From NCBI RefSeq assembly GCF_000243095.1, contig NZ_AHJE01000003.1, positions 124,001-188,000 on the forward strand: a stretch of 64,000 bases of DNA. Direction: 5' to 3'. Positions 5,377-60,123 of this stretch are shown here, one piece after another (position 1 is the stretch's first letter; each line of letters begins with the position of its first letter). Under the pieces are notes generated by a model. That model saw only the letters and a program-made list of their open reading frames with translations. It searched no databases and was not told where the DNA came from. The stretch comes from Cupriavidus basilensis OR16 (lineage in GTDB: Bacteria; Pseudomonadota; Gammaproteobacteria; Burkholderiales; Burkholderiaceae). Position numbers and translations under genes: made by a program.

Positions 5377-7656
5377 ATGGCTACGCGACGGGAAGTGCCC
5401 GGCATCAGGCCGTACGACGGACCGGCTGGCGGCTGGGGGGCGCTTCGTGCGACGACCCAGGCGATCCGCCTGCAAATGGAAACGGTCAAGGCGCCACTCA
5501 CACTGATGCGGACCAACCAGCCCGACGGGTTCGATTGCCCCGGTTGCGCGTGGCCCGACAAGGAGCACAAGTCGACGTTCCAGTTCTGCGAGAACGGTGC
5601 CAAGGCCGTGACGTGGGAGGCCACGACGAAACGGGTGCGGCCGGAATTTTTCGCGAGCAACACGGTGTCGTCGCTGCTGCAGCGATCCGATTTCGAGCTG
5701 GAGGATCTGGGCCGCCTGACCCATCCGCTTGCGTATGATCGGGCCACCGACACATTCCGTGCGGTCGAATGGGCCGAAGCGTTTGCCCGGATCGGCGAAA
5801 TCCTGCAGGTATTGTCGCCCGGCCAGGTAGAGTTCTACACGTCCGGCAGGGCCTCGAACGAGGCTGCCTACCTGTTCCAGCTGTTCGCACGAGAGTATGG
5901 GACGAACAATTTCCCGGATTGTTCTAACATGTGCCACGAAGCAACCAGCGTTGGCTTGCCACAGTCGATCGGTATCGGCAAGGGCACCGTGTCATTGGAA
6001 GATTTTGACAGCTGTGAGCTGATTATCTCCATCGGCCACAATCCCGGGACCAATCACCCTCGAATGATGGGAACGCTCCATGAAGCGGCCCGGCGGAATG
6101 TCCCGATAGTGGTATTCAATCCACTCAAGGAGCGTGCGCTCGAGCGGTTTGCGGATCCCCAGAACTGGTTGGAGATGGCAACGTACGGATCGACCAGGAT
6201 TGCGTCAACCTATTATCAGGTAGACGCTGGCGGCGACGCCGCCGCGCTCAAGGGCATCATGAAGGCGCTCCTGGATATGGACGCTCAAAATGGGGATGTC
6301 CTGGATCGCGATTTTATCGCGGTGCATACGGAAGGATTCGACGCATTTGCCGCCGACCTGGCGGCGACCTCGTGGGAGGATATCGAGAAGGCGAGCGGAC
6401 TGACCCGCGCGGATCTCGAGCAAGTCGCAGACCTTTATGCAAAGTCGAATGCCACGATCGTCACCTATGGCATGGGTGTGACACAGCATTGCAAGGGCAC
6501 AGCCAATGTCCGCCTGATTGCTGATCTGCTGTTCCTGCGTGGAAATTTTGGCAAGCCCGGTGCGGGCATTTGCCCATTGCGCGGCCATTCCAACGTGCAG
6601 GGCAATCGCACCGTCGGCATTACCGAGAAGCCGTCGGCCGATTTCCTCCAGCGCATCGAAAACACCATTGGCTTCAAGCCGCCCGCCGGGCACGGACACG
6701 ATGCCGTGAAGGCGATGCAGGCGATGATTGATGGCTCGTCCAAGGCATTGATCTGCCTGGGCGGTAACTTCGCAGTCGCGCTGCCCGATTCCGGGCAATC
6801 CTTCCCCGCGATGGCGAAGCTCGATCTGAGCGTGCACATCGGCACCAAGCTGAATCGCTCGCACCTGCTGGTGGCCAAGGAGACGTACGTGCTGCCGTGC
6901 CTGGGCCGCACGGAGCTTGACGTGCAGGCCGGCGGGCCACAATCGGTGACGGTCGAGGACTCGATGTCCATGGTCCATGCATCGGCCGGCAAGCTCACGC
7001 CGGCCTCTGAATTCTTGCGTTCCGAGCCGTCGATCGTCGCGGGAATGGCTACCGCGACCTTGCCTAACAGCAAGGTGCCATGGTCGGACCTGGTTGCCGA
7101 GTATGACAAGATCCGCGACCTGATTGAAAAGACGGTGCCGGGATTCGAGGATTTCAATGCGCGCATCCGCGTCCCTGGCGGATTCCGCCTGCCACTTCCA
7201 CCGACCGAACGCAAGTGGACTACGCCATCGGGCAAGGCGGTTTTCTCCGTATATGGCGGCGTGAAGGAAGACGCCGACGTCCTGGGCGGCGACAATGTTT
7301 TGCGTCTCATGACGATCCGCAGTCACGATCAGTACAACACCACCATCTATGCACTGGATGACCGCTATCGAGGCGTATTCGGTCGACGCGATGTGCTATT
7401 CATGCACGAAGCCGACATGGCGGCGCGAGGCTTGGAACATGGGGACCTGGTGGATATCGAGACCATCGTGACTGGCAGACAGCTAAGTCTTAAAAGGATC
7501 ACTGCCATCGCCTATGCAAACATTGCACGGGGTTCTGTGGCGGCGTATTACCCCGAAGCGAACGTGCTAGTGCCCCTGGACTACATTGACAAGGAAAGCG
7601 GTACGCCTTCGTACAAGTCTATTCCTGTCCGTGTGGTGCATTCGGAAGTGACATAG
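5377..7656 (+). CDS. FdhF/YdeP-type molybdopterin oxidoreductase
   Basis: This is an intact 759-residue protein starting at ATG 5377, with GGAG about six bases upstream. The N-terminal 'FDCPGCAWPD' holds the CxxC pair typical of the YdeP branch of the molybdopterin oxidoreductase family, which carries a reduced [4Fe-4S] site compared with true formate dehydrogenases. The 'CSNMCHEATSVGL' segment (near residue 190) supplies the metal-ligand region and the C-terminal third is the molydop-binding domain. Family members (TIGR01701-like) have been linked to acid resistance and formate-related metabolism, but the physiological substrate is unsettled. No signal peptide is seen, so it is cytoplasmic. 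It appears monocistronic, and the fdhD fragment upstream suggests a former maturation partner. Confidence 0.88.
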   Translation: MATRREVPGIRPYDGPAGGWGALRATTQAIRLQMETVKAPLTLMRTNQPDGFDCPGCAWPDKEHKSTFQFCENGAKAVTWEATTKRVRPEFFASNTVSSLLQRSDFELEDLGRLTHPLAYDRATDTFRAVEWAEAFARIGEILQVLSPGQVEFYTSGRASNEAAYLFQLFAREYGTNNFPDCSNMCHEATSVGLPQSIGIGKGTVSLEDFDSCELIISIGHNPGTNHPRMMGTLHEAARRNVPIVVFNPLKERALERFADPQNWLEMATYGSTRIASTYYQVDAGGDAAALKGIMKALLDMDAQNGDVLDRDFIAVHTEGFDAFAADLAATSWEDIEKASGLTRADLEQVADLYAKSNATIVTYGMGVTQHCKGTANVRLIADLLFLRGNFGKPGAGICPLRGHSNVQGNRTVGITEKPSADFLQRIENTIGFKPPAGHGHDAVKAMQAMIDGSSKALICLGGNFAVALPDSGQSFPAMAKLDLSVHIGTKLNRSHLLVAKETYVLPCLGRTELDVQAGGPQSVTVEDSMSMVHASAGKLTPASEFLRSEPSIVAGMATATLPNSKVPWSDLVAEYDKIRDLIEKTVPGFEDFNARIRVPGGFRLPLPPTERKWTTPSGKAVFSVYGGVKEDADVLGGDNVLRLMTIRSHDQYNTTIYALDDRYRGVFGRRDVLFMHEADMAARGLEHGDLVDIETIVTGRQLSLKRITAIAYANIARGSVAAYYPEANVLVPLDYIDKESGTPSYKSIPVRVVHSEVT

Positions 7657-11680: not shown

Positions 11681-13144
11681 ATGGCTGAAACTACGCAAGA
11701 CAGATCGAACCTGAATCGTCCTTACTGGGGGGCCATTCTTGGCGGCAACGTCGTCGAGGCTGGCGCTGACCAGGAGTTCTTCATCGTCGAGGAAGCGGCG
11801 ACTGCAAAGTCACTGGGCCGCGTGGTGTCGGCGGACGAAGCGCTCGTAGGTCGCGTGGTCGCGGATTCGCGACAAGCGTACGAAGATGACTGGCGCCAGC
11901 GTTCGCCGCGAGAGCGCGCGCAGTTGTTGCATCAGGTTGCAGCGAAAATCCGCGAGCACGCTGACGAGCTTGCCGAACTCGAGGCACGCGAAGTTGGGAA
12001 GCCAAAGCGCGATGCACTTCGCTTTGATGTGTCCTATTGCCATGCCTGTTTCGACTATTTCGCAGGCCTGGCCGATACGCTCCATGGCGAAATCCTTGAC
12101 CAGGGCGCGATCGAAGCGCGCGTACTATTTGAACCGTATGGCGTGGTCGCAGCCATCCTTCCGTTCAATTGGCCACCGATTCACTTTGCGAAGAAGTCTG
12201 CACCGGCACTGGCTGCGGGAAACACTGTCGTCGTGAAGCCGGGTGAACAGGCGCCACTCACCGTGATGCGACTGGTCGAGCTGGCCAATCAAGTGCTGCC
12301 CCCGGGCGTGCTGAACGTCGTTCCAGGCATCAAGGCCGGGCCCGCTCTGGCGTCACATCCGAAAGTGGAGCGCATCAGCTTTACAGGTGCAACCGCAACG
12401 GGCCGCCGCGTGCTGCAGAGCGCGGCGGAGAACATCACTTACGCGACTATGGAGCTTGGTGGCAAGAATGCGCTCCTCATTCTGGAGGATGCGGACATGG
12501 AGGTGGCCCTGAATGTCGCGCTCGAGGGCATGTTCTACAACCAGGGCGAAGCGTGCACGTCGACGGCACGCATTCTCGTCCACGAATCCCGATATGCGGA
12601 GTTCGAGACCAGGTTTGCCCGTGCCACCGAGAAACTCGTTGTCGGTAACGGACTGGATCCGAGCACAGACATCGGTCCAATGGTCGACGGTAAGCAGCGC
12701 GATCGTGTGATGGGGTATATCGATATTGCCCTGCGCGAAGGCGCAAGGCTCGTCACGCAAGGTACGTTGCCGACAGATTCACAGTACGAGCACGGCTACT
12801 GGGTTCCGCCCACCGTGCTTGGCGATATCGTGCCGACGATGACAGTCGCCCAGGAAGAGATCTTTGGGCCTGTTGCATGCCTGATGCGCTTCAAGACAGA
12901 GGATGAAGCCATCGACATTGCAAATGGCACGGCCTATGGGCTGACTGCCGCGATTGTTACGACAGACGAGGATCGTGCATGGAAGCTCGCGCGTCGACTC
13001 GAAGCCGGCATGATCTTCGTGAACAACTACATGCGCAGGGCTTTCCTTGGATCGCCATTTGGCGGCGTGAAGGGAAGCGGGTATGGTCGTGAAAACGCTA
13101 CCGAAACGCTCAAGGAGTTCGTGCGCCTGCAGGCTGATGACTGA
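11681..13144 (+). CDS. NAD(P)-dependent aldehyde dehydrogenase
   Basis: This is a 487-residue ALDH-superfamily enzyme oxidising an aldehyde to a carboxylate. ATG 11681 follows AAGGAG with about eight bases of spacing; an in-frame GTG at 11672 is less likely. Visible motifs are the cofactor loop 'PFNWPP' and 'AGNTVVVKPGEQAPL', the Gly motif 'SFTGATATGRRVL', the general base Glu in 'MELGGKN' and the nucleophile Cys in 'NQGEACTSTARI'. The sequence is closest in style to benzaldehyde/vanillin or salicylaldehyde-like dehydrogenases, but the substrate is not decided by sequence. It is the first gene of a forward operon with an amidohydrolase and a DoxX-like protein. Two LacI-type operators precede it, one at the ribosome-binding site, indicating repression until an inducer appears. 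Confidence 0.92.
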   Translation: MAETTQDRSNLNRPYWGAILGGNVVEAGADQEFFIVEEAATAKSLGRVVSADEALVGRVVADSRQAYEDDWRQRSPRERAQLLHQVAAKIREHADELAELEAREVGKPKRDALRFDVSYCHACFDYFAGLADTLHGEILDQGAIEARVLFEPYGVVAAILPFNWPPIHFAKKSAPALAAGNTVVVKPGEQAPLTVMRLVELANQVLPPGVLNVVPGIKAGPALASHPKVERISFTGATATGRRVLQSAAENITYATMELGGKNALLILEDADMEVALNVALEGMFYNQGEACTSTARILVHESRYAEFETRFARATEKLVVGNGLDPSTDIGPMVDGKQRDRVMGYIDIALREGARLVTQGTLPTDSQYEHGYWVPPTVLGDIVPTMTVAQEEIFGPVACLMRFKTEDEAIDIANGTAYGLTAAIVTTDEDRAWKLARRLEAGMIFVNNYMRRAFLGSPFGGVKGSGYGRENATETLKEFVRLQADD

Positions 13145-38436: not shown

Positions 38437-38629
38437 GGGGAGGGGCGCCTTGGCGCGATGGCGCTCAGTGGGCAGATCTTAAAAAGACGCGGCCGGGCAC
38501 GGAAAGTTCGTAGAAGGATAAGCGGTGGTGCCGAAACAGGGCTTCTGCGGCCTCGGGGCACTGGATAGGGCATGCCGTCAGTGTAGGCGGGCTGCAGATT
38601 GAGGTTGTGTCCGGCTTTTGTGGGATATA

Positions 38630-38645
38630 GTATGTGATATATCAA
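38630..38645. promoter_or_regulatory. Oxalate-regulon operator A (panE-like gene)
   Basis: GTATGTGATATATCAA, reverse complement of the consensus TTGATATATCACATAC, 33 bases before ATG 38679. Confidence 0.85.
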
Positions 38646-38678
38646 TGGGTACCCATAAAACCATCGGGAGACGACATC

Positions 38679-39652
38679 ATGAAACTATGTATCTATGGCG
38701 CCGGCGCCATTGGCGGCTATCTCGGCGTCCAGCTGGCACTGGCGGGCGCCGAGGTCAGCCTGATCGCGCGCGGTCCCCACCTCGCCGCCATGCGCGCCAA
38801 CGGCCTGCGGCTGCTGAGCGAGGGCGAGGAGAGGGTGGCCAAGGTCAATTGCACGGACGACCCGGCCACTGGGGCCGCAGGACTACGTCTTTATCACCCT
38901 GAAAGCGCATTCCGTGCCGGGCGTGGTGGACCTGATGCAGCCCTTGCTTGGGCAGAAGACGGCGGTGGTGACGGGTGTCAACGGCATTCCTTACTGGTAC
39001 TTCCACCAGCACGGCGGCTCGCTCGCGGGCACCACGCTGGAGAGCGTCGACCCGGGCGGGCGCCAGTGGCGTGGCCTGGGGGCCCGAGCGGGCGATCGGC
39101 TGCGTGCTCTATCCCGCCGCGGAGATCGTCGAGCCCGGCGTGATCCGCCACGTTTATGGCAAGAAATTCCCGCTGGGCGAGCCCGACGGAAGCAAGTCGG
39201 CGCGCGTGAGTCACCTGAGCGAAATGATGGTGGCCGGCGGCCTCGAGGCACCCATCCGGGACAATATCCGCGACGAGATCTGGCTCAAGCTGTGGGGCAA
39301 CCTGTGCTTCAACCCGATCAGCGCACTCACGCACGCCACGCTGGATGTCATCACCGCCGACCCGGCCACGCGCGGGCTGTCGCGCGCGATGATGCTGGAG
39401 GCGCAGGCAATTGCGGAGCGTTTTGGCGTGCGCTTCCGCGTGGATGTGGAGCGCCGCATCGACGGCGCCGGCGCGGTTGGCGCGCACAAGACTTCCATGC
39501 TGCAAGACCTCGAGGCTGGGCGGGCCATGGAGATCGACCCTTTGCTAACGGTCGTGCAGGAAATGGGGCGCCTGGTGGAGCAGCCCACGCCGATGGTGGA
39601 TGCGGTGCTGGGCCTGATCAAGCAGCGTGAACGGATGGCGCAGGCGGCTTGA
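38679..39652 (+). pseudogene. PanE/ApbA-type 2-ketopantoate-reductase homologue with two frameshifts (candidate oxalyl-CoA reductase)
   Basis: The coding signal starts at 'MKLCIYGAGAIGGYLGVQLA' (Rossmann GxGxxG) and ends with 'AVLGLIKQRERMAQAA', but passes through three frames. It shifts at about 38870 ('PATGAAG' to 'PQDYVFITLKAHSVPG') and again at the G5 run 39078-39082 ('GLGARAG' to 'GPERAIGCVLYP'). Correcting both gives about 323 residues, typical of the family, with the conserved 'WLKLWGNLCFNPISALTHAT' helix. In Methylobacterium extorquens a PanE2 homologue reduces oxalyl-CoA to glyoxylate during oxalate assimilation. The oxalate operator and the CoA-transferase locus make that role likelier here than pantothenate synthesis (inference). 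Confidence 0.82.
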
Positions 39653-40662: not shown

Positions 40663-40689
40663 TCTTTCGCCATCAGGCGCGCCAGCATG

Positions 40690-41439
40690 TCCCATGCGCC
40701 GTCCCGGCGGGGCGGTGGTGCCGGCAATAAAGCCCACCACGGGTTTGACGCGCCCGCTGCCTCGCGCATCCTGCAGGAACCGCGCGGCTTCTTCTTCGGC
40801 AGAGCCGCCGATCTCGCCGATCATGATGATGCCTTCGGTGTCGTCGTCGGCCAGGAACATCTCAAGGCAATCGATAAAGTTGGTGCCGTTGACCGGGTCG
40901 CCGCCGATGCCGATGCAGGTGCTCTGGCCGAGCCCGGCGGCCGTGGTTTGCGCCACCGCTTCATAAGTCAGCGTGCCGGAACGGGACACCACGCCGATCT
41001 TGCCCGGGCGATGGATATGGCCTGGCATGATACCGATCTTGCATTGTCCCGGCGTGATCACGCCCGGGCAATTTGGCCCGACCAGACGGCTGCCCGAACC
41101 GGATAGCGCGCGCTTGACCCGCACCATGTCGATCACCGGGATGCCTTCGGTAATGCACACGATCAGGCCGATGCCCGCGTCCACGGCTTCCAGGATGGCG
41201 TCGGCCGCGAAGGGCGGGGGCACGTAGATGACCGAGGCGTCGGCGCCCGTGCGCTCCACCGCGGCGGCTACGGTGTCGAACACCGGGAGCCCGAGACGTG
41301 TCTCGCCGCCCTTGCCGGGGGTGACGCCGCCGACCATGCGCGTGCCGTAGGCCAGCGCCTGTTCAGAGTGGAAGGTGCCTTGCGCGCCGGTGAAGCCCTG
41401 GCAGATCACCTTGGTGTCTTGATGGATCAGTACGGCCAT
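40690..41439 (-). pseudogene. Succinyl-CoA-synthetase alpha-like subunit (SucD paralogue), 3'-truncated
   Basis: From ATG 41439 ('[20 protein letters not shown]') the protein follows SucD: the CoA-binding 'GGVTPGKGG', '[20 protein letters not shown]' and the second domain '[20 protein letters not shown]'. The active-site His loop should come in 'RMGHAGAIISGG', but after 'RRMGHAGA' the sequence becomes unrelated and the frame runs through the terminator to 40492, overlapping gntR 2. About 45 residues are lost, including the glycine-rich loop after the phospho-His. SucCD paralogues beside oxalate genes could make succinyl-CoA to prime the CoA-transferase, or activate oxalate or malate directly (MtkAB-like). 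Confidence 0.85.
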
Positions 41440-41440
41440 G

Positions 41441-42671
41441 TCATTTCTCTCCCATATCGCCGTTCTTGCCAGCTTGCACGCGGGCTTGAACGGCCTTGAC
41501 CACTTTCTGCGCGGCGTCGGCAAGGTGATCGGCCGACAGGATCGGCAATCCGGAGTCGCGCAGGATGGCCTTGCCTAGTGCCACGTTGGTGCCTTCCAGC
41601 CGGACCACCAGCGGGACCGTCAGGTCGATCTCGCGCGCGGCGGCCACCACGCCTTCGGCGATCACGTCGCAGCGCATGATGCCGCCAAAGATATTGACCA
41701 GGATGCCCTTGACCTTGGGGTCGTCGAGGATCAGGCGGAAGGCCGCCGTCACGCGTTCCTTGGTGGCGCCGCCACCCACGTCAAGGAAGTTAGCCGGCTC
41801 CCCGCCGTAGAGCTTGATGATGTCCATGGTGGCCATGGCCAAGCCGGCGCCGTTGACCATGCAGCCGATGCTGCCGTCGAGCTTGACGTAGTTCAGCCCA
41901 TGGCGGGCCGCCGCGGATTCGGCGGGATCTTCCTCGGCTTCGTCGCGCAAGGCTTCGATGTCCGGATGGCGGTACAGCGCGTTGTCGTCGAAGTTGAACT
42001 TGGCGTCGAGCGCGATCACGTCGCCGGCGCGTGTCACCACCAGCGGGTTGATTTCGACCACCGACGCGTCCAGCTCGGTAAAGGCGCGGTAAGCCGAGAG
42101 GATAAAGCGCGAAGCCGCGCCGACCTGCTTGCCGCTCAGGCCCAGCCCGAAGGCGAGGCGGCGCGCGTGGAAGGGCTGGATGCCGCTGGCCGGGTCGATC
42201 GCGACCTTCAGGATCTTCTCCGGCGTGCGGGCCGCGACTTCCTCGATTTCCATGCCGCCTTCGGTGGAGGCCATCAGCGTGATGCGGGAGGTGGCGCGGT
42301 CGATCAGCATGCCCAGGTAAAGCTCGCGGGCAATTTCGCAGCCTTCCTCGACATATAGGCGGCGCACTTCGCGGCCGGCTTCCCCGGTCTGTTTGGTGAC
42401 TAGCACTTTGCCGAGCATCTGTTCGGCCTGCGTACGCACGGCATCGACTGACTTGGCCACGCGTACGCCCCCCTTGCCGTCCGGTTCGCCGGCAAAGCGG
42501 CCAGCGCCGCGGCCGCCGGCATGGATCTGGGACTTCACCACCCAGATCGATCCGCCGATCTTGCGTGCCGCGCTGGCGGCTTCCTCCGGGGTAAAACGCG
42601 ACGGCCCCGCGCGGTACGGCCACGTCGAAGCGCCTGAGCAGTTCCTTGGCCTGATATTCGTGAATGTTCAC
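41441..42671 (-). pseudogene. Succinyl-CoA-synthetase/malate-CoA-ligase beta-like subunit (SucC paralogue), frameshifted
   Basis: ATG 42671 starts '[20 protein letters not shown]', the SucC/MtkA N-terminal hallmark. After 'RGAVAF' an extra base in an A4 run (T4 on the coding strand, 42593-42596) throws the frame; removing it restores '[20 protein letters not shown]' and '[20 protein letters not shown]', and the rest to 41441 is clean (409 residues). The ATP-grasp residues '[10 protein letters not shown]' and the terminal '[17 protein letters not shown]' nucleotide-binding region are present. It is one base from the sucD-like start, so they are co-transcribed. The '[13 protein letters not shown]' loop resembles MtkA rather than housekeeping SucC, suggesting a specialised acid substrate (inference). 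Confidence 0.85.
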
Positions 42672-42750
42672 AAGTCTCCTCGCTCTCGGTGATGCGCGTG
42701 CCGGCGAGCCGCGAAACCGGATGGTCCGGCAGAACGCGCTGTGAAATATG

Positions 42751-42766
42751 GTATGTAATATATCAA
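42751..42766. promoter_or_regulatory. Oxalate-regulon operator C (sucCD paralogues)
   Basis: GTATGTAATATATCAA, reverse complement of TTGATATATTACATAC, 80 bases upstream of the sucC-like start on the reverse strand. Confidence 0.85.
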
Positions 42767-42948
42767 AGATAAACAAGCGATTTTTCCCCAAGGAGGAGGA
42801 CAAGGGCGCAGCGCCGGTCAGCCGTGCGCAAACGGAATGAATCGGCGCGCATTCAGCAATTGCGCTTATTTATCCTCCATTTATCGGTGATTTGCTGCAT
42901 CGCATCGTTGAAACATCATGGCCAGCATCCAAATTTCCTTGAGCTTCG

Positions 42949-42964
42949 TTGATATATCACATAC
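42949..42964. promoter_or_regulatory. Oxalate-regulon operator D (fusion gene)
   Basis: TTGATATATCACATAC followed by CGTAT, 170 bases before ATG 43134. It lies in the divergent region with operator C, about 200 bases away. Confidence 0.88.
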
Positions 42965-43133
42965 CGTATGTCATCAAGATCCTTCGAAAAGGATCGATGG
43001 CATCGCCGGGCAGGTGACATGCAGGGTAGGCACCGGCCAGGCAGCAAAGCAGCAAAGGGCGAAAGGGTGTCGTGACGACGGGCCAGGTCCGCGTCACAGC
43101 CTGTCGCAACCCAGTCAACGAGGAGACCAAGAC

Positions 43134-45656
43134 ATGTCTGCAGTCGCACCCACGCGGCCTGAATCCACCACGGCCGAAGACACCCTGAAGCAGAAGACCC
43201 GCGATGCCGGCGTGATTTCCGGCGGCCACCTGGTGGCGCGGGCCCTGAAGAACGAAGGCGTCGACACCATCTTCACGCTCTGTGGCGGCCATATCATCGA
43301 TATTTACGACGGCTGTGTGGACGAGGGCATCCGCATCATCGATGTGCGCCACGAGCAGGTTGCCGCGCATGCGGCGGACGGCTACGCGCGCCAGACCGGC
43401 AAGCTGGGCTGCGTGGTGACCACCGCCGGCCCGGGCTGCACCAACGCCGTGACCGGCGTGGCGACGGCCTTCCGCTCGGAAAGCCCGATCATCCATATCG
43501 GCGGACAGGGCGCGCTGTCCCAGCACAAGATGGGCTCGCTGCAGGACTTGCCGCACGTCGACATGATGTCGCCCATCACCAAGTTTGCGGCCACCATCCC
43601 CAGCACCGAGCGCGTGGCGGACATGATCGCGATGGCGGCGCGCGAGTGCTTCAATGGCGCGCCCGGCCCGTCGTACCTGGAAATCCCGCGCGACGTGCTT
43701 GACCGCGAAGTCGACGTGGCGCGCGCGGTGATTCCGCGCCCCGGCCACTATCGCGCTTCCACCAAATCGATTGGCGATCCGAAGGATATCGAGCGTCTGG
43801 CCGACATCCTGGTGAATGCTGAGCGCCCCGCGATTCTCTACGGCCAGCAGGTCTGGACCGCGCGCGGGCACGAGGAAGCCGTCGCGCTGCTCAAGGGCCT
43901 GGACATCCCCGGCTATTTCAACGGCGCCAGCCGCGGGCTGCTGCCGCCGGGCGATCCGCACCACTTCGACCGAACCCGCACGCAAGCCTTCGCCAATGCC
44001 GACGTACTGATCATCGTGGGCACGCCGTTCGACTTCCGCATGGGCTACGGCAAGCGCATCAGCAAGGAGCTGACGCTGGTGCAGATCGACATGGATTACC
44101 GCACGGTCGGCAAGAACCGCGAGATCGACCTTGGCCTGGTGGGCGACCCCGGCGCCATCCTCGGTGCCGTGCTGCAGGCCGCCAGCGGCCGCATCAAGCA
44201 CGACAAGCGCCAGGCGCGGCAGAAGTGGATGGGCCAGTTGACCGAGGCCGAGGCCGTGGCCGCCGAAAAGCTGATGCCGCTGTTGCGCTCGGAGAACACG
44301 CCGATCCATCCGTATCGCGTGGCGTATGAACTGAATGAGTTCCTGGCGGACAACACGGTCTACATTGGCGACGGCGGCGACGTAGTGACCATTTCCGCGC
44401 AGGCGGTGCGTCCGCGCCGTCCCGGCCAGTGGATGGACCCGGGCGCGCTGGGCTCGCTGGGCGTCGGCACCGGCTTTGCCATCGCCGCCGGCCTGGCCAA
44501 CCCGAACAAGGAAATCGCCGACGTGATCAAGGTGGAGTTGCCGGGGCGCGGCGACATCACGCGCAGCCAGCTGCGCGATGTGCCCAACGCCGACAGCTTG
44601 TATTTCACCATGCTGAACTCCAACAAGCGCAGCCTCACGCTCAACATGAAGACGCCGGAGGGCAAGGCGCTGCTGGAAGACCTGGTGCAGCGCTGCGACG
44701 TGCTGGTGGAGAACTTCGGCCCCGGCGTGCTGGACCGCGCCGGTTTCGACTGGGACCGCCTGCAGACGCTGAACCCGCGGTTGATCTATGCGTCGATCAA
44801 GGGCTTCGGCCCGGGCCCTTTCGCGGACTGCAAGGCCTATGAGAACGTGGCCCAGTGCATGGGCGGCTCGGCCAGCACCACCGGCACGGCGGATGGCGCG
44901 CCCACCGTCACCGGCGCGCAGATCGGCGACTCCGGCACGGGCATCCACTGCGTGGTGGGCATCCTGGCGGCACTGCTGCAACGCGAGCATTCCGGGCGTG
45001 GCCAGCGGGTGGAAGTGGCGATGCAGGACGCCGTGCTCAACCTGTGCCGGGTCAAGCTGCGCGACCAGCAGCGCCTGGCCGCCGGGCCGATGCGCGAGTA
45101 CCCCAACCAGGAGTTCGACGACTTCGTGCCGCGCGCGGGCAATGCATCTGGCGGCGGCCAGCCCGGCGCGGCGCTGCGCTGCGCGCCCGGCGGCGCCAAC
45201 GATTACGTCTACGTGATCGTGCAGCCGCAAGGCTGGGAGCCGCTGATGCGCTTGTGCGGCAGGGAGGAGCTGATTACCCATCCGCAGTTCGCCTCGCCGG
45301 AGGCCCGCCTCAAATGCCTGGAAGAGTGTTTCTCCATCATCGAGAAATGGACGCGCACGCGCACCAAGTTCGAAGTCATGGATGCCCTCAACGAGGTCGA
45401 TGTGCCGTGCGGGCCGATCCTGTCGATGAAGGACCTGATCGAGGACAAGTCACTGTACGAGCGCGGCTACCTGGTGGAGCTGGATCACCCGGAGCGCGGC
45501 CAGTACGTGCAACTCGGCTGCCCGATTACCTTGTCGGCATCGCCGGTGGAGGTCGAGCGCTCGCCGTTGCTGGGCGAGCATACCGGGGAGATCCTCGACT
45601 GGCTGGGCCGCACGCCCTCGCAGATCGAAGCCTTGCGCGCCGCCGGGGCAGTCTGA
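43134..45656 (+). CDS. In-frame fusion of a ThDP-dependent lyase (oxalyl-CoA decarboxylase/acetolactate-synthase superfamily) with formyl-CoA:oxalate CoA-transferase
   Basis: The frame is one 840-residue ORF (ATG 43134 with AGGAGA upstream). Residues 1 to about 461 are a ThDP enzyme: PYR domain with catalytic Glu in '[16 protein letters not shown]', the middle domain, and the start of the PP domain ending at '[18 protein letters not shown]'. Exactly where 'GDGS...NN' should bind ThDP-Mg, the sequence switches to '[20 protein letters not shown]', which is residue 30 or so of formyl-CoA:oxalate CoA-transferase (Frc). The Frc part keeps the catalytic Asp ('[20 protein letters not shown]') and the GGGQPG loop, but lacks the first about 35 residues with the Gln that helps form the active site. 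Both halves are thus incomplete. Most likely an in-frame deletion merged oxc-like and frc genes; a functional chimera is improbable but not excluded. Confidence 0.9.
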
Positions 45657-45675
45657 TGCCCTGAACGTGCACGAG

Positions 45676-45700
45676 GCACTTCAAGCACTTCAAGCACTTC
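45676..45700. repeat. 9-bp tandem repeat, 2.8 copies
   Basis: GCACTTCAA is repeated at 45676 and 45685 and then partially. It lies in the short gap after the fusion gene. Confidence 0.9.
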
Positions 45701-45723
45701 CCGCAGTGAGTTTGCAAGCCGCC

Positions 45724-45749
45724 CGCCCTCGCGCTTTCGCGCGAGGGCG
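45724..45749. terminator. 11-bp perfect hairpin between the fusion gene and the acyl-CoA synthetase gene
   Basis: CGCCCTCGCGC - TTTC - GCGCGAGGGCG. No T-run follows, so it is either a weak terminator or an mRNA-processing/stability element within the operon. Confidence 0.5.
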
Positions 45750-45796
45750 AGGACCGGCTCATCCCTACGCAATCCATGAACAGATGGAGACCTGAC

Positions 45797-47927
45797 ATGG
45801 CACACAACAAGGACGCGGTGAGGAAGATCCTCGCCGCCGTGAAGGAAGAAGGCCGCAATGCGCTGACTGCGCCCGAAGGCAAGCTGGTGTGCGATGCCTA
45901 CGGCATCGCGGTGCCGGGCGAGGGCGTGGCCCGGACGCCGACCGGCGCTGTCGAGCTGGCTGACAAGATGGGATATCCGGTAGTGCTCAAGATCGTCTCG
46001 CCCGACATCCTGCACAAGACCGAGGCCGGCGGCGTGCTGGTAGGCCTGAACAGCGCTGCGGATGTGGAGCGCGGCTACCTGACCATCGTCGGGAATGCGA
46101 AGAAGTACGACCCCAACGCCAATATCGTCGGCGTTCAGGTGCAGCAGATGATCACCGGCGGGCAGGAGGTCATCATTGGTGCCGTCACCGATCCGTCCTT
46201 CGGCAAGCTGGTGGCCTTCGGCCTGGGCGGCGTGCTGGTCGAAGTGCTCAAGGACATTACCTTCCGCATGGCCCCGGCCAAGCCAGGACGATGCGCTGTC
46301 GATGCTCGACGGCATTGCCGCCGCCGAAGTGCTCAAGGGCGTGCGCGGCGCCGATCCGGCCAATCGCGAGGCGCTGGCCGGCATGATCCAGCGCGTGTCG
46401 GAACTGGTGAGCGATTTCCCGGAGATCTCGGAGCTTGACCTTAACCCGGTATTCGCCAGCAAGGACGGCGCCATTGCTGCCGACGTGCGCATCGTGGTGG
46501 ACTTCGCGCCGCAGCCGGAGCGCTACCGCCCCAGCCAGGAAGACATCGTCAGGCAGATGAACCGCATCATGCGACCCGATTCGGTGGCCGTGATCGGCGC
46601 CTCAAACGAGGATGGCAAGATCGGCAACTCGGTGATGAAGAACCTGATCAACGGCGGCTACCAGGGCAAGATCTACCCGATCCATCCCAAGGGCGGCGAG
46701 ATCATGGGCATGACCGCGTACAGGAGCGTGCTCGACGTACCGGGCGAGGTGGATGTGGCGGTGTTCGCCATTCCCGCCAAGCTGGTGGCCGGGGCGCTGG
46801 AAGAGGTGGGCAAGAAGCAGATTCCAGGCGCGGTGCTGATTCCCTCGGGGTTTGCCGAGACCGGCAACGTGCAAGGGCAGGAAGAGATCGTCGCCATCGC
46901 ACGCAAGCACGATATCCGCTTGATGGGGCCGAATATCTACGGCTTCTATTACACGCCCAAGAACCTGTGCGCGACCTTCTGCACGCCGTACGACGTCAAG
47001 GGCAAGGCGGCGCTGTCGTCGCAGTCCGGCGGCATCGGCATGGCCATCATCGGCTTCTCGCGCTCGGCCAGGATGGGCGTGTCGGCCATTGTCGGGCTGG
47101 GCAACAAGTCCGACATCGATGAGGACGATCTGCTCACCTTCTTCGAGCAGGACGACAACACCGAGATCATCGCCCAGCACTGCGAGGACCTGAAGGACGG
47201 CCGCGCCTTTGCCGAAGCGGCGAAGCGGGTCTCGAAGAAAAAGCCGGTGGTCGTGCTCAAGGCCGGGCGCACCAGCATGGGCGCGCGCGCCGCCAGTTCG
47301 CACACGGGCGCGCTGGCCGGCAACGACAAGATCTACGAGGACGTGTTCAAGCAGTGCGGCGTGATCCGCGCCCGCTCGCTGCGCGACCTGCTGGAGTTCG
47401 CACGCGGCATTCCCAAGCTGCCGACGCCCAAGGGCGAGAACGTGGTGATCATCACGGGCGCCGGCGGCTCGGGCGTGTTGTTGTCGGATGCGTGCGTGGA
47501 CAACAACCTGTCGCTGATGACCATGCCGGACGACCTGGATGCGGCTTTCCGCAAGTTCATTCCGCCTTTTGGCGCGGCGGGCAATCCGGTCGACATCACC
47601 GGCGGCGAGCCGCCCGCCACGTACAAGAACACCTTGCGCCTGGGCATGGAGGACCCGCGCATCCACGCCATCATCCTGGGCTATTGGCACACCATCATCA
47701 CGCCACCGATGGTGTTCGCCAAGCTGGTGGTGGAGGTGAAGGAGGAAATGGCCGCGCGCGGCATCGAGAAGCCGATCGTGGCCTCGCTGGCGGGTGACGT
47801 GCAGGTGGAGGAGGCTGCCGAGTACCTGTACGAACACGGCGTGCCGTCCTACGCGTACTCGACCGAGATCCCGGTCGCGGTGCTGGGCGCCAAGTACAAG
47901 TGGGCTCGCGGCGCCGGCAAGATCTGA
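45797..47927 (+). pseudogene. ADP-forming acyl-CoA synthetase (AcdAB-type fused), frameshifted by one base
   Basis: From ATG 45797 the ATP-grasp (beta) domain comes first ('MGYPVVLKIVSPDILHKTEA', 'GVQVQQMITGGQEVIIGAVT'). At about 46280 one extra A turns 'RMAPASQDDALSML' into 'RMAPAKPGRCAV' and the original frame ends at 46438. Correcting it gives a 709-residue protein whose second part is the CoA-binding/succinyl-CoA-ligase-like alpha domain ('PDSVAVIGASNEDGKIGNSV', 'SSHTGALAGNDKIYEDVFKQ', the His of SSHTGALAG being the phospho-His). Such enzymes convert a carboxylate, CoA and ATP to acyl-CoA and ADP. In this context oxalate, formate or a related acid is a plausible substrate (inference). Translation is preceded by an AT-rich 45-base leader. 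Confidence 0.85.
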
Positions 47928-50908: not shown

Positions 50909-51119
50909 GCACTCGTCCGTCCCATGTATAAAGGATCGTAAATGATCATAATAAAAAACTTTATGCTGTGCCGAACTTAGTTTGAACTAGCATCAGTCCA
51001 CGGATGCACGTGCCGCAATGTCAGGCGCGCTCAATCAAGTAGTGACCAAGGGCTCCCCTTCCAGAGAAGCCTACCCGTCGCGCCACAGAGCGCGACACGC
51101 ACTATGCAGGAGACACGAC

Positions 51120-52460
51120 ATGGCGCACGACAATTCGGCGGCAATAGCCGCAAGCCGTTTGGGCTGGCTTCACAACCGCTGGTTCCAGCTGGCGATCGGT
51201 GTGGTCTGCATGGGGCTGGTAGCCAATCTCCAGTACGGCTGGACATTATTCGTGACCCCGATGAACGCCAAGCATCACTGGGGCGAGTCGGCCATCCAGG
51301 TAGCCTTTTCCATTTTCATCGTGACCGAGACGTGGCTGGTGCCGCTTGAAGGTTGGCTGGTCGACAAGATCGGGCCACGCCCGGTGGTGGCATGTGGCGC
51401 GGTGTGCGCGGGGCTGGCCTGGGTCATCAATGCGTATGCGACCAGCCTGCCACAGCTGTACCTGGCGGCGGTGATCGCCGGCATCGGCGCCGGCGGCGTG
51501 TATGGCACTTGTGTAGGCAATGCGCTCAAGTGGTTTCCGGACAAGCGCGGCCTGGCCGCCGGGCTGACCGCCGCCGGGTTTGGCGCGGGCTCGGCGCTGA
51601 CCGTGATTCCCATTGCCAACATGATCCAGCGCTCGGGCTACGAGATGGCCTTCATCACTTTCGGCATCCTGCAAGGCGTCAGCATCCTGCTGATGGCCTT
51701 GCTGCTGGTCAAGCCGCGCCCGCCTGTGGGCGCCGTGGCGGCCAAGGCGGTGCTGACCAATCCGATCGAGTTCACGCCGGGGCGGATGGTGAAGACGCCA
51801 GTTTTCTGGGTCATCTACGCCTCGTTCGTGGCGGTTGCGGCCGGCGGCATCATGGCCACCGCGCAGTTGGGTCCGATTGCACGGGATTTCGGCTTCGCGT
51901 CGATGCCAGTGACGATGCTGGGGTTCACGCTGCCGCTGCTCACCATGACGCTGTCGATCGACAACCTGTGCAATGGCCTTACGCGGCCGCTGTGCGGGTT
52001 TATCTCGGACCGCATCGGCCGGGAGAACACCATGTTCTTTATCTTCATCGGCGAGGGGCTGTCGCTGCTCGGGCTGATGGCGTTCGGGCATAACCCGTAT
52101 CTGTTCATGACGTTCGCGGCGCTGACGTTCCTGTTCTGGGGCGAGATTTTCTCGATCTTTCCCGCGCTGTGCGCCGATACCTTCGGCAGCAAGTTTGCCG
52201 CGGCCAATGCCGGCACGTTGTATACGGCCAAGGGCACGGCGGCGATGCTGGTGCCGCTGGCTTCGATCCTGTCGGCGCGTGGCGGGTGGGATGCCGTCTT
52301 TACGGTGGCTGCGACCGTGACCATCGCGGCAGGTTTGTCGGCCAAGTTCGTGCTGGCGCCGATGCGAAGGCGGTTTATCACGGGGCACGCTGAGTCCCTG
52401 GCGCCCGCGACCGATCACGCGGCGTATCTGGCGGGGCTCTCTCCCCGCAAAAGCGATTGA
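51120..52460 (+). CDS. MFS transporter, oxalate/formate antiporter (OFA) family, copy 1
   Basis: This is a 446-residue carrier with twelve predicted helices. The start at ATG 51120 is supported by AGGAGA at 51108-51113. The OFA signature 'GLVANLQYGWTLFVTPMNAK' (helix 1 and following loop, compare OxlT) and 'FIVTETWLVPLEGWLVDKIG' (helix 2) are present; 'GTCVGNALKWFPDKRGLAAG' is the conserved helix 4-5 loop. OxlT exchanges oxalate for formate in Oxalobacter; others move aromatic or other acids. The pair with copy 2 (54485), which is about two-thirds identical by eye, suggests recent duplication with regulatory divergence: this copy is next to LysR, copy 2 behind an oxalate operator. Confidence 0.93.
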   Translation: MAHDNSAAIAASRLGWLHNRWFQLAIGVVCMGLVANLQYGWTLFVTPMNAKHHWGESAIQVAFSIFIVTETWLVPLEGWLVDKIGPRPVVACGAVCAGLAWVINAYATSLPQLYLAAVIAGIGAGGVYGTCVGNALKWFPDKRGLAAGLTAAGFGAGSALTVIPIANMIQRSGYEMAFITFGILQGVSILLMALLLVKPRPPVGAVAAKAVLTNPIEFTPGRMVKTPVFWVIYASFVAVAAGGIMATAQLGPIARDFGFASMPVTMLGFTLPLLTMTLSIDNLCNGLTRPLCGFISDRIGRENTMFFIFIGEGLSLLGLMAFGHNPYLFMTFAALTFLFWGEIFSIFPALCADTFGSKFAAANAGTLYTAKGTAAMLVPLASILSARGGWDAVFTVAATVTIAAGLSAKFVLAPMRRRFITGHAESLAPATDHAAYLAGLSPRKSD

Positions 52461-53839: not shown

Positions 53840-54484
53840 TGCTCGCGTGTTGCGATTGGCGGGCCGCCCGGCTGCCAATCGCTGCCGCCATGCGAGGGTA
53901 GGGGCCTAACCCTGCCCAATCCGTGTGGTTTGGTTGCTGAGCTTGCTTGCACAAAGCCATCCCGGGCACTTTTTTCCCGTTCCGCGGCGCGCATGCCGCC
54001 CTGCACGACCCCTCCGCTCTTCTGTCCTGAAGGGCAAGACATTCAGTACATTGACCTGCCGGCCTGCCTGACTTTATCTAGGGACTTTCCCGGAGATCGT
54101 CCGCGAGGCGCTAAGCCCTCCAACTTCCCGCCACCCGGATCTACATCTCCACAGCCGCCTGTTTACGCGCGCCATTGATGAGGCGGACCGCCCTAAGTCA
54201 TTGATCCTTCAGCAGGCCGGCTTGCGCTGCCCGCCCGCTTTGATGCGCGTGACGCACGAGTCATCTCCATGCCGCTTTCCGGCACATTGCCACCGCCGTT
54301 TCCAGGCAGTTTCAGGGTCCGCCAGGTGGGCTAAAAGCGCCTTGACTATATTGATATATCACATACTGTATAGCACTGAAACGACCGCAGTATCTGGGAT
54401 GCAGCACAAGCAGTGCCGTCCCAAAAGAGGTGTCCGAAGACGCCCTTTCCACATAAGGCGGCCCCGCCCGCCATAGGAGACACC
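53840..54484. other. 645-base intergenic region before OFA transporter 2
   Basis: No gene is recognised. It carries operator F (54351-54366) and a possible -35 (TTGACT, 54342-54347), and several CG-rich repeats downstream of the small protein gene. Confidence 0.6.
54351..54366. promoter_or_regulatory. Oxalate-regulon operator F (OFA transporter 2)
   Basis: TTGATATATCACATAC followed by TGTAT; it lies just downstream of the TTGACT hexamer at 54342-54347, so a bound regulator would overlap RNA polymerase. Confidence 0.87.
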
Positions 54485-55801
54485 ATGGAACATCAGCAAA
54501 ACGCGCCCGAGTCACGCTTTGCCTCCCCCTGGGTTCAGCTCGTCTTTGGCGTGATCTGCATGGCGATGATCGCCAACATGCAATACGGCTGGACGTTGTT
54601 CGTCAACCCGATCGACGACAAGTACCACTGGGGCCGCACGGCGATCCAGGTGGCATTCACCATCTTCGTCGTGACCGAGACCTGGCTGGTGCCGATCGAG
54701 GGCTACCTCGTGGACAAGTACGGCCCGCGTCCCGTGGTGGTGGGTGGCGGCCTGCTGTGCGCGATTGCCTGGGCCTTGAACTCCGTGGCCGCGTCGCTGC
54801 CGATGCTCTACTTCGCGGCAGCGGTAGGCGGGGTAGGCGCGGGCGCGGTGTACGGCACCTGCGTGGGCAATGCGTTGAAGTGGTTCCCCAACCGGCGCGG
54901 GCTGGCCGCAGGCATCACCGCCGCTGGCTTTGGCGCAGGCTCGGCGCTGACCGTGGTGCCGATTGCCAACATGATCAAGAGCAGCGGCTACGAGGCCACG
55001 TTCCTGTGGTTCGGCCTGGGCCAGGGCCTGATCGTCTTCTTCCTGGGCATGGCGCTCTATCCGCCTTCGGCCAAGGTGCTCAACCAGGTCACGTCCGCAG
55101 TCAAGACCGCTGCCTACAACGCCTCGCCGCGCCAGGTGCTGTCCTCGCCGATCTTCTGGGTGATGTACGCGATGTTCGTGATGATGGCGGCCGGCGGCCT
55201 GATGGCTACCGCCCAGCTGGGCCCGATCGCCAAGGATTTCGGCCTCGATGGCGTGCCGGTTTCGCTGCTCGGCCTGACGTTGCCCGCGCTGACCTTCGCC
55301 CTCACCATCGACCGCGTGCTCAATGGGCTGACGCGCCCATTCTTTGGCTGGATCTCGGACAACATCGGTCGTGAGAACACCATGTTCCTGGCCTTTGCGG
55401 TCGAGGCGGTGGGCATTCTGCTGCTGGCAAAATATGGTCAGGATCCCATTGCTTTCGTGGTGCTGACCGGTGTCGTGTTCTTCGCCTGGGGGGAAATCTA
55501 CAGCCTGTTTCCGGCCACCTGCGGCGATACCTTCGGGCCCAAGTTTGCTGCCACAAATGCCGGCCTGTTGTACACCGCCAAGGGCACAGCCGCGCTGCTG
55601 GTGCCATTCTCCAGCGTCATCACTGCCGCCACCGGCGACTGGCACGCAGTCTTCATGCTTGCCTCGGGCATGGCTGCGCTGTCCGCCTTCCTGGCCTTGT
55701 TCGTGCTCAAGCCAATGCGCGAAGCCCACGCCAAGAAGTATGTGCATGCCAGTACCACGCCGCCGATGGGATATCGCGCGGTGCCGGAGGACCTGACCTG
55801 A
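54485..55801 (+). CDS. MFS transporter, oxalate/formate antiporter (OFA) family, copy 2
   Basis: This is a 438-residue twelve-helix carrier; ATG 54485 has AGGAGA upstream. The first helix 'IANMQYGWTLFVNPIDDKYH', the 'FVVTETWLVPIEGYLVDKYG' helix and 'GTCVGNALKWFPNRRGLAAG' match OxlT-type proteins and the first copy at 51120. Operator F in its promoter puts it under the same control as the CoA-transferase and sucCD genes, so it is the likelier oxalate/formate exchanger for the pathway. Exchange of oxalate2- against formate- would also generate a proton motive force when oxalyl-CoA is decarboxylated (known for Oxalobacter). Confidence 0.94.
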   Translation: MEHQQNAPESRFASPWVQLVFGVICMAMIANMQYGWTLFVNPIDDKYHWGRTAIQVAFTIFVVTETWLVPIEGYLVDKYGPRPVVVGGGLLCAIAWALNSVAASLPMLYFAAAVGGVGAGAVYGTCVGNALKWFPNRRGLAAGITAAGFGAGSALTVVPIANMIKSSGYEATFLWFGLGQGLIVFFLGMALYPPSAKVLNQVTSAVKTAAYNASPRQVLSSPIFWVMYAMFVMMAAGGLMATAQLGPIAKDFGLDGVPVSLLGLTLPALTFALTIDRVLNGLTRPFFGWISDNIGRENTMFLAFAVEAVGILLLAKYGQDPIAFVVLTGVVFFAWGEIYSLFPATCGDTFGPKFAATNAGLLYTAKGTAALLVPFSSVITAATGDWHAVFMLASGMAALSAFLALFVLKPMREAHAKKYVHASTTPPMGYRAVPEDLT

Positions 55802-57763: not shown

Positions 57764-60123
57764 ATGAATGCGCTGACCCGCGCCGAGCGCGCGCAAGTGG
57801 ACGCCTCCTCGGATACCACGGTGACGTTCCGCCTGAATGGCAGGGACGTGCGCGCCGGGCCGGGCGAGAGCTTGCTCAAGGTGGCGCAGCGCGAGGGCTT
57901 CGATATCCCGCACCTGTGCTACAAGGACGGCCTGGACACCGCCGGCAATTGCCGCGCCTGCATGGTGGAGATCAAGGGCGAGCGCGTGCTGGCGCCGTCG
58001 TGCTGCCGTTACCCAATGCAGGGCATGGAGGTGCAGACCGCCTCCGAGCGCGCGGTGCGCTCGCAGCGCATGGTGCTGGAGTTGCTGCAGTCCGATATGC
58101 CCGAGGCGCATTACACGCGTAACAATGAGCTGGACCAAGGGTGGGTTGCCAGCTCACCTACAACGTCAAGGACAACCGCATCCTCTTTGTCGAAGGGCGT
58201 TTTGGGCCGGCCAACCAGAAACGCCTGTGCGTGAAGGGGCGCTATGGCTTCGATTACGCCCAGCATCCGCATCGGCTCACGGTGCCGCTGGTGCGGCGCG
58301 ATGGCGCGCCTAAACGCGGCGATTTCGTGATGGATCCCGCGCGCGTGATGGACGTGTTCCGCGAAGCCAGTTGGGAAGAGGCCCTCGCGCTTGCGGGCGC
58401 CAGCCTGTCGGCCATCCGCGACAGGCACGGCAAGCGCGCGCTGGCCGGCTTTGGCTCCGCCAAGGGAAGCAACGAAGAGGCCTACCTGTTTCAAAAGCTC
58501 GTACGCACCGGCTTCGGCAGCAACAACGTGGACCATTGCACGCGGCTTTGCCACGCGTCGTCGGTGGCGGCACTGCTCGAAGGCATCGGCTCGGGTGCGG
58601 TTTCCAACCCGGTGATGGATGTGGCGCGCGCGCAGGTGGTGATCGTGATCGGCGCCAATCCCACCGTCAATCATCCAGTGGCGGCGAGCTGGATCAAGAA
58701 CGCCGTAAGCAATGGCACCAAGCTGATCCTGGCCGATCCGCGCCGCTCCGACCTGGCGCGCTTCGCCCATCGCTTCCTGCAGTTCGAGCCCGATACCGAT
58801 GTGGCGCTGCTCAACGCCATGATGCATGTGATCGTGGCCGAAGGACTGGTCGATCAGGATTTCATCGCCAGCCGCACCATCGGCTACGAGGAACTGGAGC
58901 GCAACGTGGCGGCCTACAGCCCGGAGCTGATGGCGCCGGTCTGCGGCATCGATGCGGAAACCATCCGCTATGTGGCGCGCCTGTATGCCAGCTCCAAAGC
59001 GTCGATGATCCTCTGGGGCATGGGGATTTCCCAACATATCCACGGCACCGACAATGCCCGCTGCCTGATCGCCCTGGCGCTGATGACGGGGCAGATCGGC
59101 CGGCCTGGCACGGGGCTGCATCCGCTGCGCGGCCAGAACAACGTGCAGGGCGCTTCCGATGCCGGCCTGATCCCGATGATGTATCCGGACTACCGCCGCG
59201 TCGACGATCCCGAGGCCATCGCGCGCTTCGAGTCGTTGTGGGGCATGCCGCTGGACCGCCAGCCGGGACTGACCGTGGTCGAAGTGATGCAGGCCATCGA
59301 GCGGGGCGAAGTGCGCGGGATGTACATCATGGGCGAGAACCCGGCCATGTCGGACCCTGACGCCCAGCATGCGCGCGAGGCGCTGGCGGCGCTGGACCAC
59401 CTTGTCGTGCAGGATATCTTCCTGACGGAGACGGCCTACCTGGCCGACGTGGTGCTGCCGGCTTCGGCGTTCCCGGAGAAGACGGGCACCTTTACCAACA
59501 CGGACCGCACGGTGCAGCTTGGCCGCCAGGCGATCGATCCGCCCGGGCAGGCACGCCAGGACCTGTGGATCATCCAGCAGATGGCGGCCAGGCTGGGGCT
59601 GGACTGGTCGTACGCAAGCGTGGCCGACGTGTTCGACGAGATGCGCCATGCCATGCCAAGCATCGGCGGCATTACCTGGGAGCGCTTGCAACGGGAGGAC
59701 GCGGTGACCTATCCCTGCCGCGCCGAAGGCGACCCGGGCGAGCCGGTGATCTTTACGGATGGGTTTCCGACCGCCTCGGGCCGGGCCCGTTTTGTTCCGG
59801 CCGACATCATTCCCGCGGCCGAGCGGCCCGACCAGGATTATCCCGTTGTGCTTATCACCGGCCGGCAGCTCGAGCACTGGCATACCGGCAGCATGACCCG
59901 GCGTGCGGGCGTGCTGGATGCGATCGAGCCGGAGCCGGTGGCGCTGGTGCATCCACTCGACCTGGCTGCCATCGGCGCTCAGCCGGGCGATGTGGTGACG
60001 CTGGCATCGCGCCGGGGCCAGGTCTCGCTGTTTGCGCGGGCCGACGATGGCACGCCGCGCGGCGCGGTGTTCGTGCCATTCTGTTACTACGAGGCCGCCA
60101 TCAACAAGCTGACGCGCAGCTGA
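57764..60123 (+). pseudogene. fdwA: Formate dehydrogenase alpha subunit (Fdh1A/FdwA type) with internal out-of-frame deletion
   Basis: From ATG 57764 the [2Fe-2S] domain is present ('GFDIPHLCYKDGLDTAGNCR', 'CMVEIKGERVLAPSCCRYPM'). After 'YTRNNELDQ' the expected His-Cys3 and two ferredoxin-like [4Fe-4S] segments (about 120 residues in relatives) are missing. The frame changes at about 58140, where 'VGCQLTYNVKDNRILFVEGR' resumes in the molybdopterin part. The catalytic 'NNVDHCTRLCHASSVAALLE' (metal-ligand Cys), 'GPGTGLHPLRGQNNVQGASD'-like loop and the C-terminal MopB domain are complete to 60123. Without the deleted clusters electrons cannot reach the beta subunit. It catalyses formate to CO2 when intact; W or Mo at the bis-MGD site cannot be told from sequence. 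Confidence 0.87.

Follow-up and report, generated by a model that had tools for sequence, protein, structure and literature searches.

A clean 483-nt absence underlies the in-frame lyase–formyl-CoA transferase chimera of the Cupriavidus basilensis OR16 draft genome and is very probably an assembly artefact

The window analysed here, 64,000 nt of one contig of the Cupriavidus basilensis OR16 draft assembly, contains at 43134–45656 (plus strand) a frame of 840 codons that is open without interruption, as a sequence-only reading of the window had stated. The mechanical open reading frame starts upstream, at ATG 42918, and comprises 912 amino acids. The matches of relatives begin at residue 1 of the 43134 start, in a search whose query itself began at 43134. 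Pfam profiles divide the 840-residue frame into two halves. TPP_enzyme_N (residues 29–138) and TPP_enzyme_M (219–345) are followed by a match to TPP_enzyme_C at 413–463, which covers only the first 51 of 151 profile positions, and by CoA_transf_3 at 462–817, from profile position 27 through to the profile end. Residues 462–840 belong to formyl-CoA transferase (Frc) by NCBIfam TIGR03253 (567.9 bits, cut-off 504.2). This match enters at profile position 30, and the N-terminus is thus incomplete. For residues 1–461, no NCBIfam model exceeded its cut-off among the best 25 of 51 matches. The parts of the frame are:

43134..44516, plus strand: 5′ part (461 codons) of a gene for a thiamine diphosphate (ThDP)-dependent lyase, with the N-terminal and middle domains retained and the cofactor-binding C-terminal part gone.
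44516..44517, plus strand: junction of lyase and frc; 483 nt of L013 and G040 (485 nt of G006) are absent, with 0 nt of microhomology.
44517..45656, plus strand: frc (formyl-CoA transferase) without its first 30 codons, as defined by profile matches and by the intact gene of a relative (L013:6777-8003).

The nearest related locus, L013, belongs to 'Burkholderiaceae bacterium 16' (contig JYOD01000016.1) and is probably the same record as contig C67 of genome G040. The search for separate genes in relatives, which the sequence-only reading had proposed, found two complete and adjacent genes in L013. The lyase gene (584 aa, L013:5001-6752) and frc (ATG at 6777, to 8003 plus stop) are neighbours in the same reading frame. 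Alignment to relatives sharpened the switch from lyase to Frc, previously placed at about 44508–44525, to 44516|44517. Relative to L013, the absent 483 nt consist of 123 lyase codons, the stop codon, a 21-nt spacer and 30 Frc codons. The proposal of a simple loss between two adjacent genes is borne out at the nucleotide level against L013 and G006. Identities of the flanks at the junction are 95% to L013/G040 and 90–92% to G006, and microhomology at the join against L013 is 0/0 nt. The contig that contains the junction is 243,430 nt long.

The GDG...NN motif is the ThDP-Mg motif of the C-terminal domain in ThDP-dependent lyases. In L013, the site is present as GDGSFGM...GNN within the lyase codons that are absent from the window frame. 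The claim that the lyase part lacks its ThDP-Mg site thus holds, and by this motif the window frame does not qualify as a ThDP lyase. The start of Frc is also gone, as had been noticed, with a loss of 30 residues and not of about 35. The absent stretch includes HVQAGP and the residue aligned to Q17 of the PDB Frc sequence, which we take to be the active-site (catalytic) glutamine. Compared with the characterised Frc (TIGR03253; PDB 1p5h and 2vjk; YfdW of Escherichia coli, 1pt5), residues 462–840 agree well enough to pass the family cut-off, but the first 30 residues with the Q17-aligned position are missing.

The kept parts look conserved. Against L013, the lyase part differs by 49 synonymous nucleotides and 12 non-synonymous codons and the frc part by 21 and 3, respectively. 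Against G006, the synonymous and non-synonymous counts are 87/12 for the lyase and 78/17 for frc. Since most changes are synonymous, the sequences give no sign of long decay.

The intact neighbourhood comprises the lyase gene, frc, an acetate–CoA ligase-like gene, divergent sucCD-like genes, two OxlT-type antiporter genes and a formate dehydrogenase alpha gene. Together they form an oxalate-type locus. The acetate–CoA ligase-like gene scored 476.6 bits against TIGR02717, short of the cut-off of 567.15, and the formate dehydrogenase alpha gene scored 713.3 bits against TIGR01591 (cut-off 666.25). The two oxalate/formate antiporter genes close by (window 51018–52460 and 54413–55801) exceeded the TIGR04259 cut-off of 335 with 647.2 and 629.3 bits. 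Each of them has about 68% DNA identity to the other's counterpart in G040.

The lyase half had been regarded as oxalyl-CoA decarboxylase (Oxc, gene oxc). This name is unsupported at present: the intact lyase of L013, the only relative scored, reached 222.9 bits against Oxc TIGR03254, far below the cut-off of 739.4. It also stayed below the cut-off of the NCBIfam 2-hydroxyacyl-CoA lyase (356.6 bits, cut-off 600), although its best match among solved structures is a 2-hydroxyacyl-CoA lyase (PDB 7pt1–7pt4, 274 bits), presumably the Actinomycetospora enzyme. The fragment in the window further differs from that enzyme by the missing ThDP site. Among seven genomes of the genus searched, Oxc exceeded the cut-off in G040 and G018, and only matches below the cut-off were obtained in G006, G016, G004 and G010. 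The OR16 genome had no Oxc match at E 1e-60. A Skermanella plasmid carries a true oxc, followed by frc, acetate–CoA ligase, sucC and sucD. The lyase shares with Oxc the position beside frc, but only 27% identity with the Skermanella Oxc. The lyase beside frc could be a substitute oxalyl-CoA decarboxylase, or else a 2-hydroxyacyl-CoA lyase. That it takes the place of Oxc is offered as a lead rather than a result.

Further genes of the neighbourhood are broken in the window:

42593, minus strand: 1-nt insertion breaking a sucC-like gene (succinate/malate–CoA ligase beta), private in comparison with G040 and G006.
46280, plus strand: 1-nt insertion breaking the downstream acetate–CoA ligase-like gene, private in comparison with G040 and G006.
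58137..58145, plus strand: clean internal loss of 343 nt in the formate dehydrogenase alpha gene, which has 945 aa in G006.
60114..60121, plus strand: the formate dehydrogenase alpha gene has also lost 238–245 nt at its 3′ end, by comparison with relatives.

Neither G040 nor G006 shares any of the three large losses in the window (483, 343 and about 240 nt). Where the sucD-like gene ends, near 40670, about 141 nt of G006 have no counterpart in the window; this absence fell outside the rule for clean absences and was not counted. The panE/apbA gene (2-dehydropantoate 2-reductase, 38618–39649) has a 2-nt loss at 38868 and a 1-nt gain at 39078, neither of which occurs in G040 or G006. Like the lyase–frc join, the breaks in panE, sucC, the acetate–CoA ligase-like gene and the formate dehydrogenase alpha gene favour an error of the assembly. 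Window positions 40679–47371 are about 95% identical to G040 with flanks at 80–90%, and identity to G006 is about 89–93% throughout. From these identities, a recombination of the block of sucCD, lyase, frc and ligase genes is possible. The acetate–CoA ligase-like gene of G040 has a clean 541-nt absence of its own (at about 68411 of the joined stretch; window 47371) and also a 1-nt frame break (window 46057).

A fused gene was sought in relatives. In the best 80 of 578 confirmed related loci (L013–L092), lyase and frc are at most 1 kb apart in 70. In three loci the best frc match is about 2 kb away, and in seven the lyase stands alone in the available sequence, which allows no judgement. One frame through lyase and frc was found in none of the 73 loci with both genes. 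Open frames of about 1000–1100 aa in several relatives were considered as natural fusions and rejected, as a stop separates the genes. The genus survey covered 60 genomes including OR16, with E values up to 1e-100 and up to 16 scored candidates in each. A single match over residues 1–840 occurred in OR16 only and in none of the 59 others, 13 of which gave a match to the lyase half by itself. A plasmid search of 22 records revealed no fused locus close by; the matches had 71–86% identity, except one 34-nt match at 100%. No description of a lyase–Frc fusion was seen in passages of PMC7176365, PMC7486775 and PMC12927642.

Essential genes served as a control of the assembly. A cell cannot live without the RNA polymerase beta subunit (rpoB) or alanyl-tRNA synthetase (alaS), and polC/dnaE and ileS are essential as well. 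The rpoB gene in the OR16 assembly, the only one found (contig C320, 8616–12410), was matched in two pieces. It has a clean loss of 297 nt at 11886|11887 with 0/0 microhomology, and a TAG stop is formed at the join. The flanks are 96.3% and 97.6% identical to G006, and rpoB is whole in G006, G040 and G004. This break and the lyase–frc join are identical in form. In alaS (within contig C375, 159779–162332), the single match over the cut-off in the assembly, a 7-nt tandem duplication shifts the frame and so splits the gene across two frames; this is a gain and not a loss. The polC/dnaE and ileS genes are intact; a second, DnaE-like gene on contig C377 is split. Of the four essential families, OR16 thus has two broken, against none of 12 in G006, G040 and G004 together. 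The breaks in rpoB and alaS are assembly errors, because a living cell could not carry them. Clean losses in this assembly therefore cannot be accepted as biology at face value.

The OR16 assembly has 8.55 Mb in 416 contigs, with a completeness of 99.44% and a contamination of 5.1%. The frequency of clean absences was determined in ten pairs of syntenic stretches outside the window, which had been picked by shared CoA-transferase genes or adjacency; the reference was G006, a relative assembled in two contigs. Over 150,116 aligned nt, clean segments of at least 30 nt were absent 23 times in OR16 and twice in G006. In the window, the counts were 4 and 0 in 27,533 nt against G006 and 3 and 1 in 27,242 nt against G040. 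The control comparisons yielded 1 and 0 in 37,291 nt (G040 against G006) and 0 and 0 in 15,773 nt (G004 against G006). The BLAST pieces overlap by 0–3 nt in 12 of the 23 clean absences. All 23 were scored, unpolarised, against G006 as the one relative. Length differences are multiples of three in 14 of 23 cases (7.7 expected), with 11 of 15 below 150 nt and 3 of 8 above. This excess suggests that natural in-frame variation probably accounts for some of the absences, mainly short ones.

Counts of broken open reading frames at the protein level did not separate the genomes (11 of 103 in OR16 and 12 of 110 in the reverse test; within the window, 5 of 20 and 3 of 15), partly because a loss in OR16 creates fused frames, which make the relative's genes seem broken. 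The direction of loss was decided at the DNA level and not from these counts. A decay limited to the oxalate locus was rejected: clean absences turn up across the contigs sampled, and one lies in rpoB.

At the lyase–frc locus, 483 nt are cleanly absent, none of the relatives examined shows this absence, and errors of this class recur in other parts of the assembly, even in an essential gene. That the 483-nt absence is itself such an error is most likely. The organism would then have two complete adjacent genes, for a ThDP lyase and for Frc, like its relatives. The draft assembly would have lost a stretch of about 483 nt and joined the flanks with the gap unmarked. By chance, in one of three cases, such a join would be in frame and create the 840-residue open frame. 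Draft assemblies can hold false chimeric or frame-broken genes. The OR16 locus resembles these by clean losses and frame breaks that relatives do not share, and the same class of defect affects essential single-copy genes of the same assembly (rpoB, alaS). We consider it highly probable that the chimera is an artefact of this kind. The sequence-only reading had named two outcomes that would contradict a deletion in the strain. One of them, a collapse in the assembly, is now the best explanation, as inferred from the comparisons above. The other, a fusion conserved in many species, was not seen in the 73 loci with both genes.

The absence may instead be a real and very recent 483-nt deletion in the strain, with the in-frame product as an inactive remnant; this is unlikely. 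A single event would be enough, the junction is clean and in frame within its long contig, and the absent piece was found on no other contig of the assembly. A search for it retrieved two 54-nt flanks and four weak matches with 70–80% identity. A misplacement of the piece on another contig was thus rejected, and there is no direct sign that the 483 nt were ever sequenced. The 541-nt absence of G040 demonstrates that losses, real or apparent, in the vicinity of this locus are not unique to OR16, and half of the four essential genes, polC/dnaE and ileS, are intact in OR16. However, the only rpoB of the same assembly has a clean loss with a stop, which is impossible in life, and clean absences are about tenfold more common than in G006 (23 versus 2). 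The complete lack of microhomology at the join and the mostly synonymous changes in the kept parts also speak against a real deletion. If the loss is real, the 840-aa product, devoid of the ThDP diphosphate/Mg site and of the first 30 Frc residues with the presumed active-site glutamine, would very probably be inactive.

Very improbable is the retained chimera that the sequence-only reading had suggested for testing: a real deletion whose product works, as a bifunctional protein or a scaffold, and is kept by selection. Such a protein would combine the body of a ThDP lyase without cofactor site with a trimmed Frc, and a new role as scaffold or in CoA transfer is very hard to credit. The 840 codons without a stop are compatible with it. 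The odds of one in three for staying in frame, which had been cited in its support, are what chance provides and no evidence of retention. The ThDP site and the first 30 Frc residues with the Q17 equivalent are gone, and no fusion exists among the 73 loci with both genes (from the best 80 of 578). Clean losses of this same kind in rpoB and across the sampled stretches, and every other argument for an assembly error, count here too.

An ancient lyase–Frc fusion family with the window frame as one member might have been expected from the short distance of the genes in 70 of 80 loci and from their common frame in L013, but it is refuted within the sets searched by the same 0 of 73 loci and by the genus survey with its single full-length match in OR16 itself, and its probability is negligible.

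These comparisons keep a false fusion from being adopted as a natural bifunctional enzyme. They also imply that the OR16 assembly, despite its good completeness score, is unfit for claims on truncated, fused or frame-broken genes of this organism.
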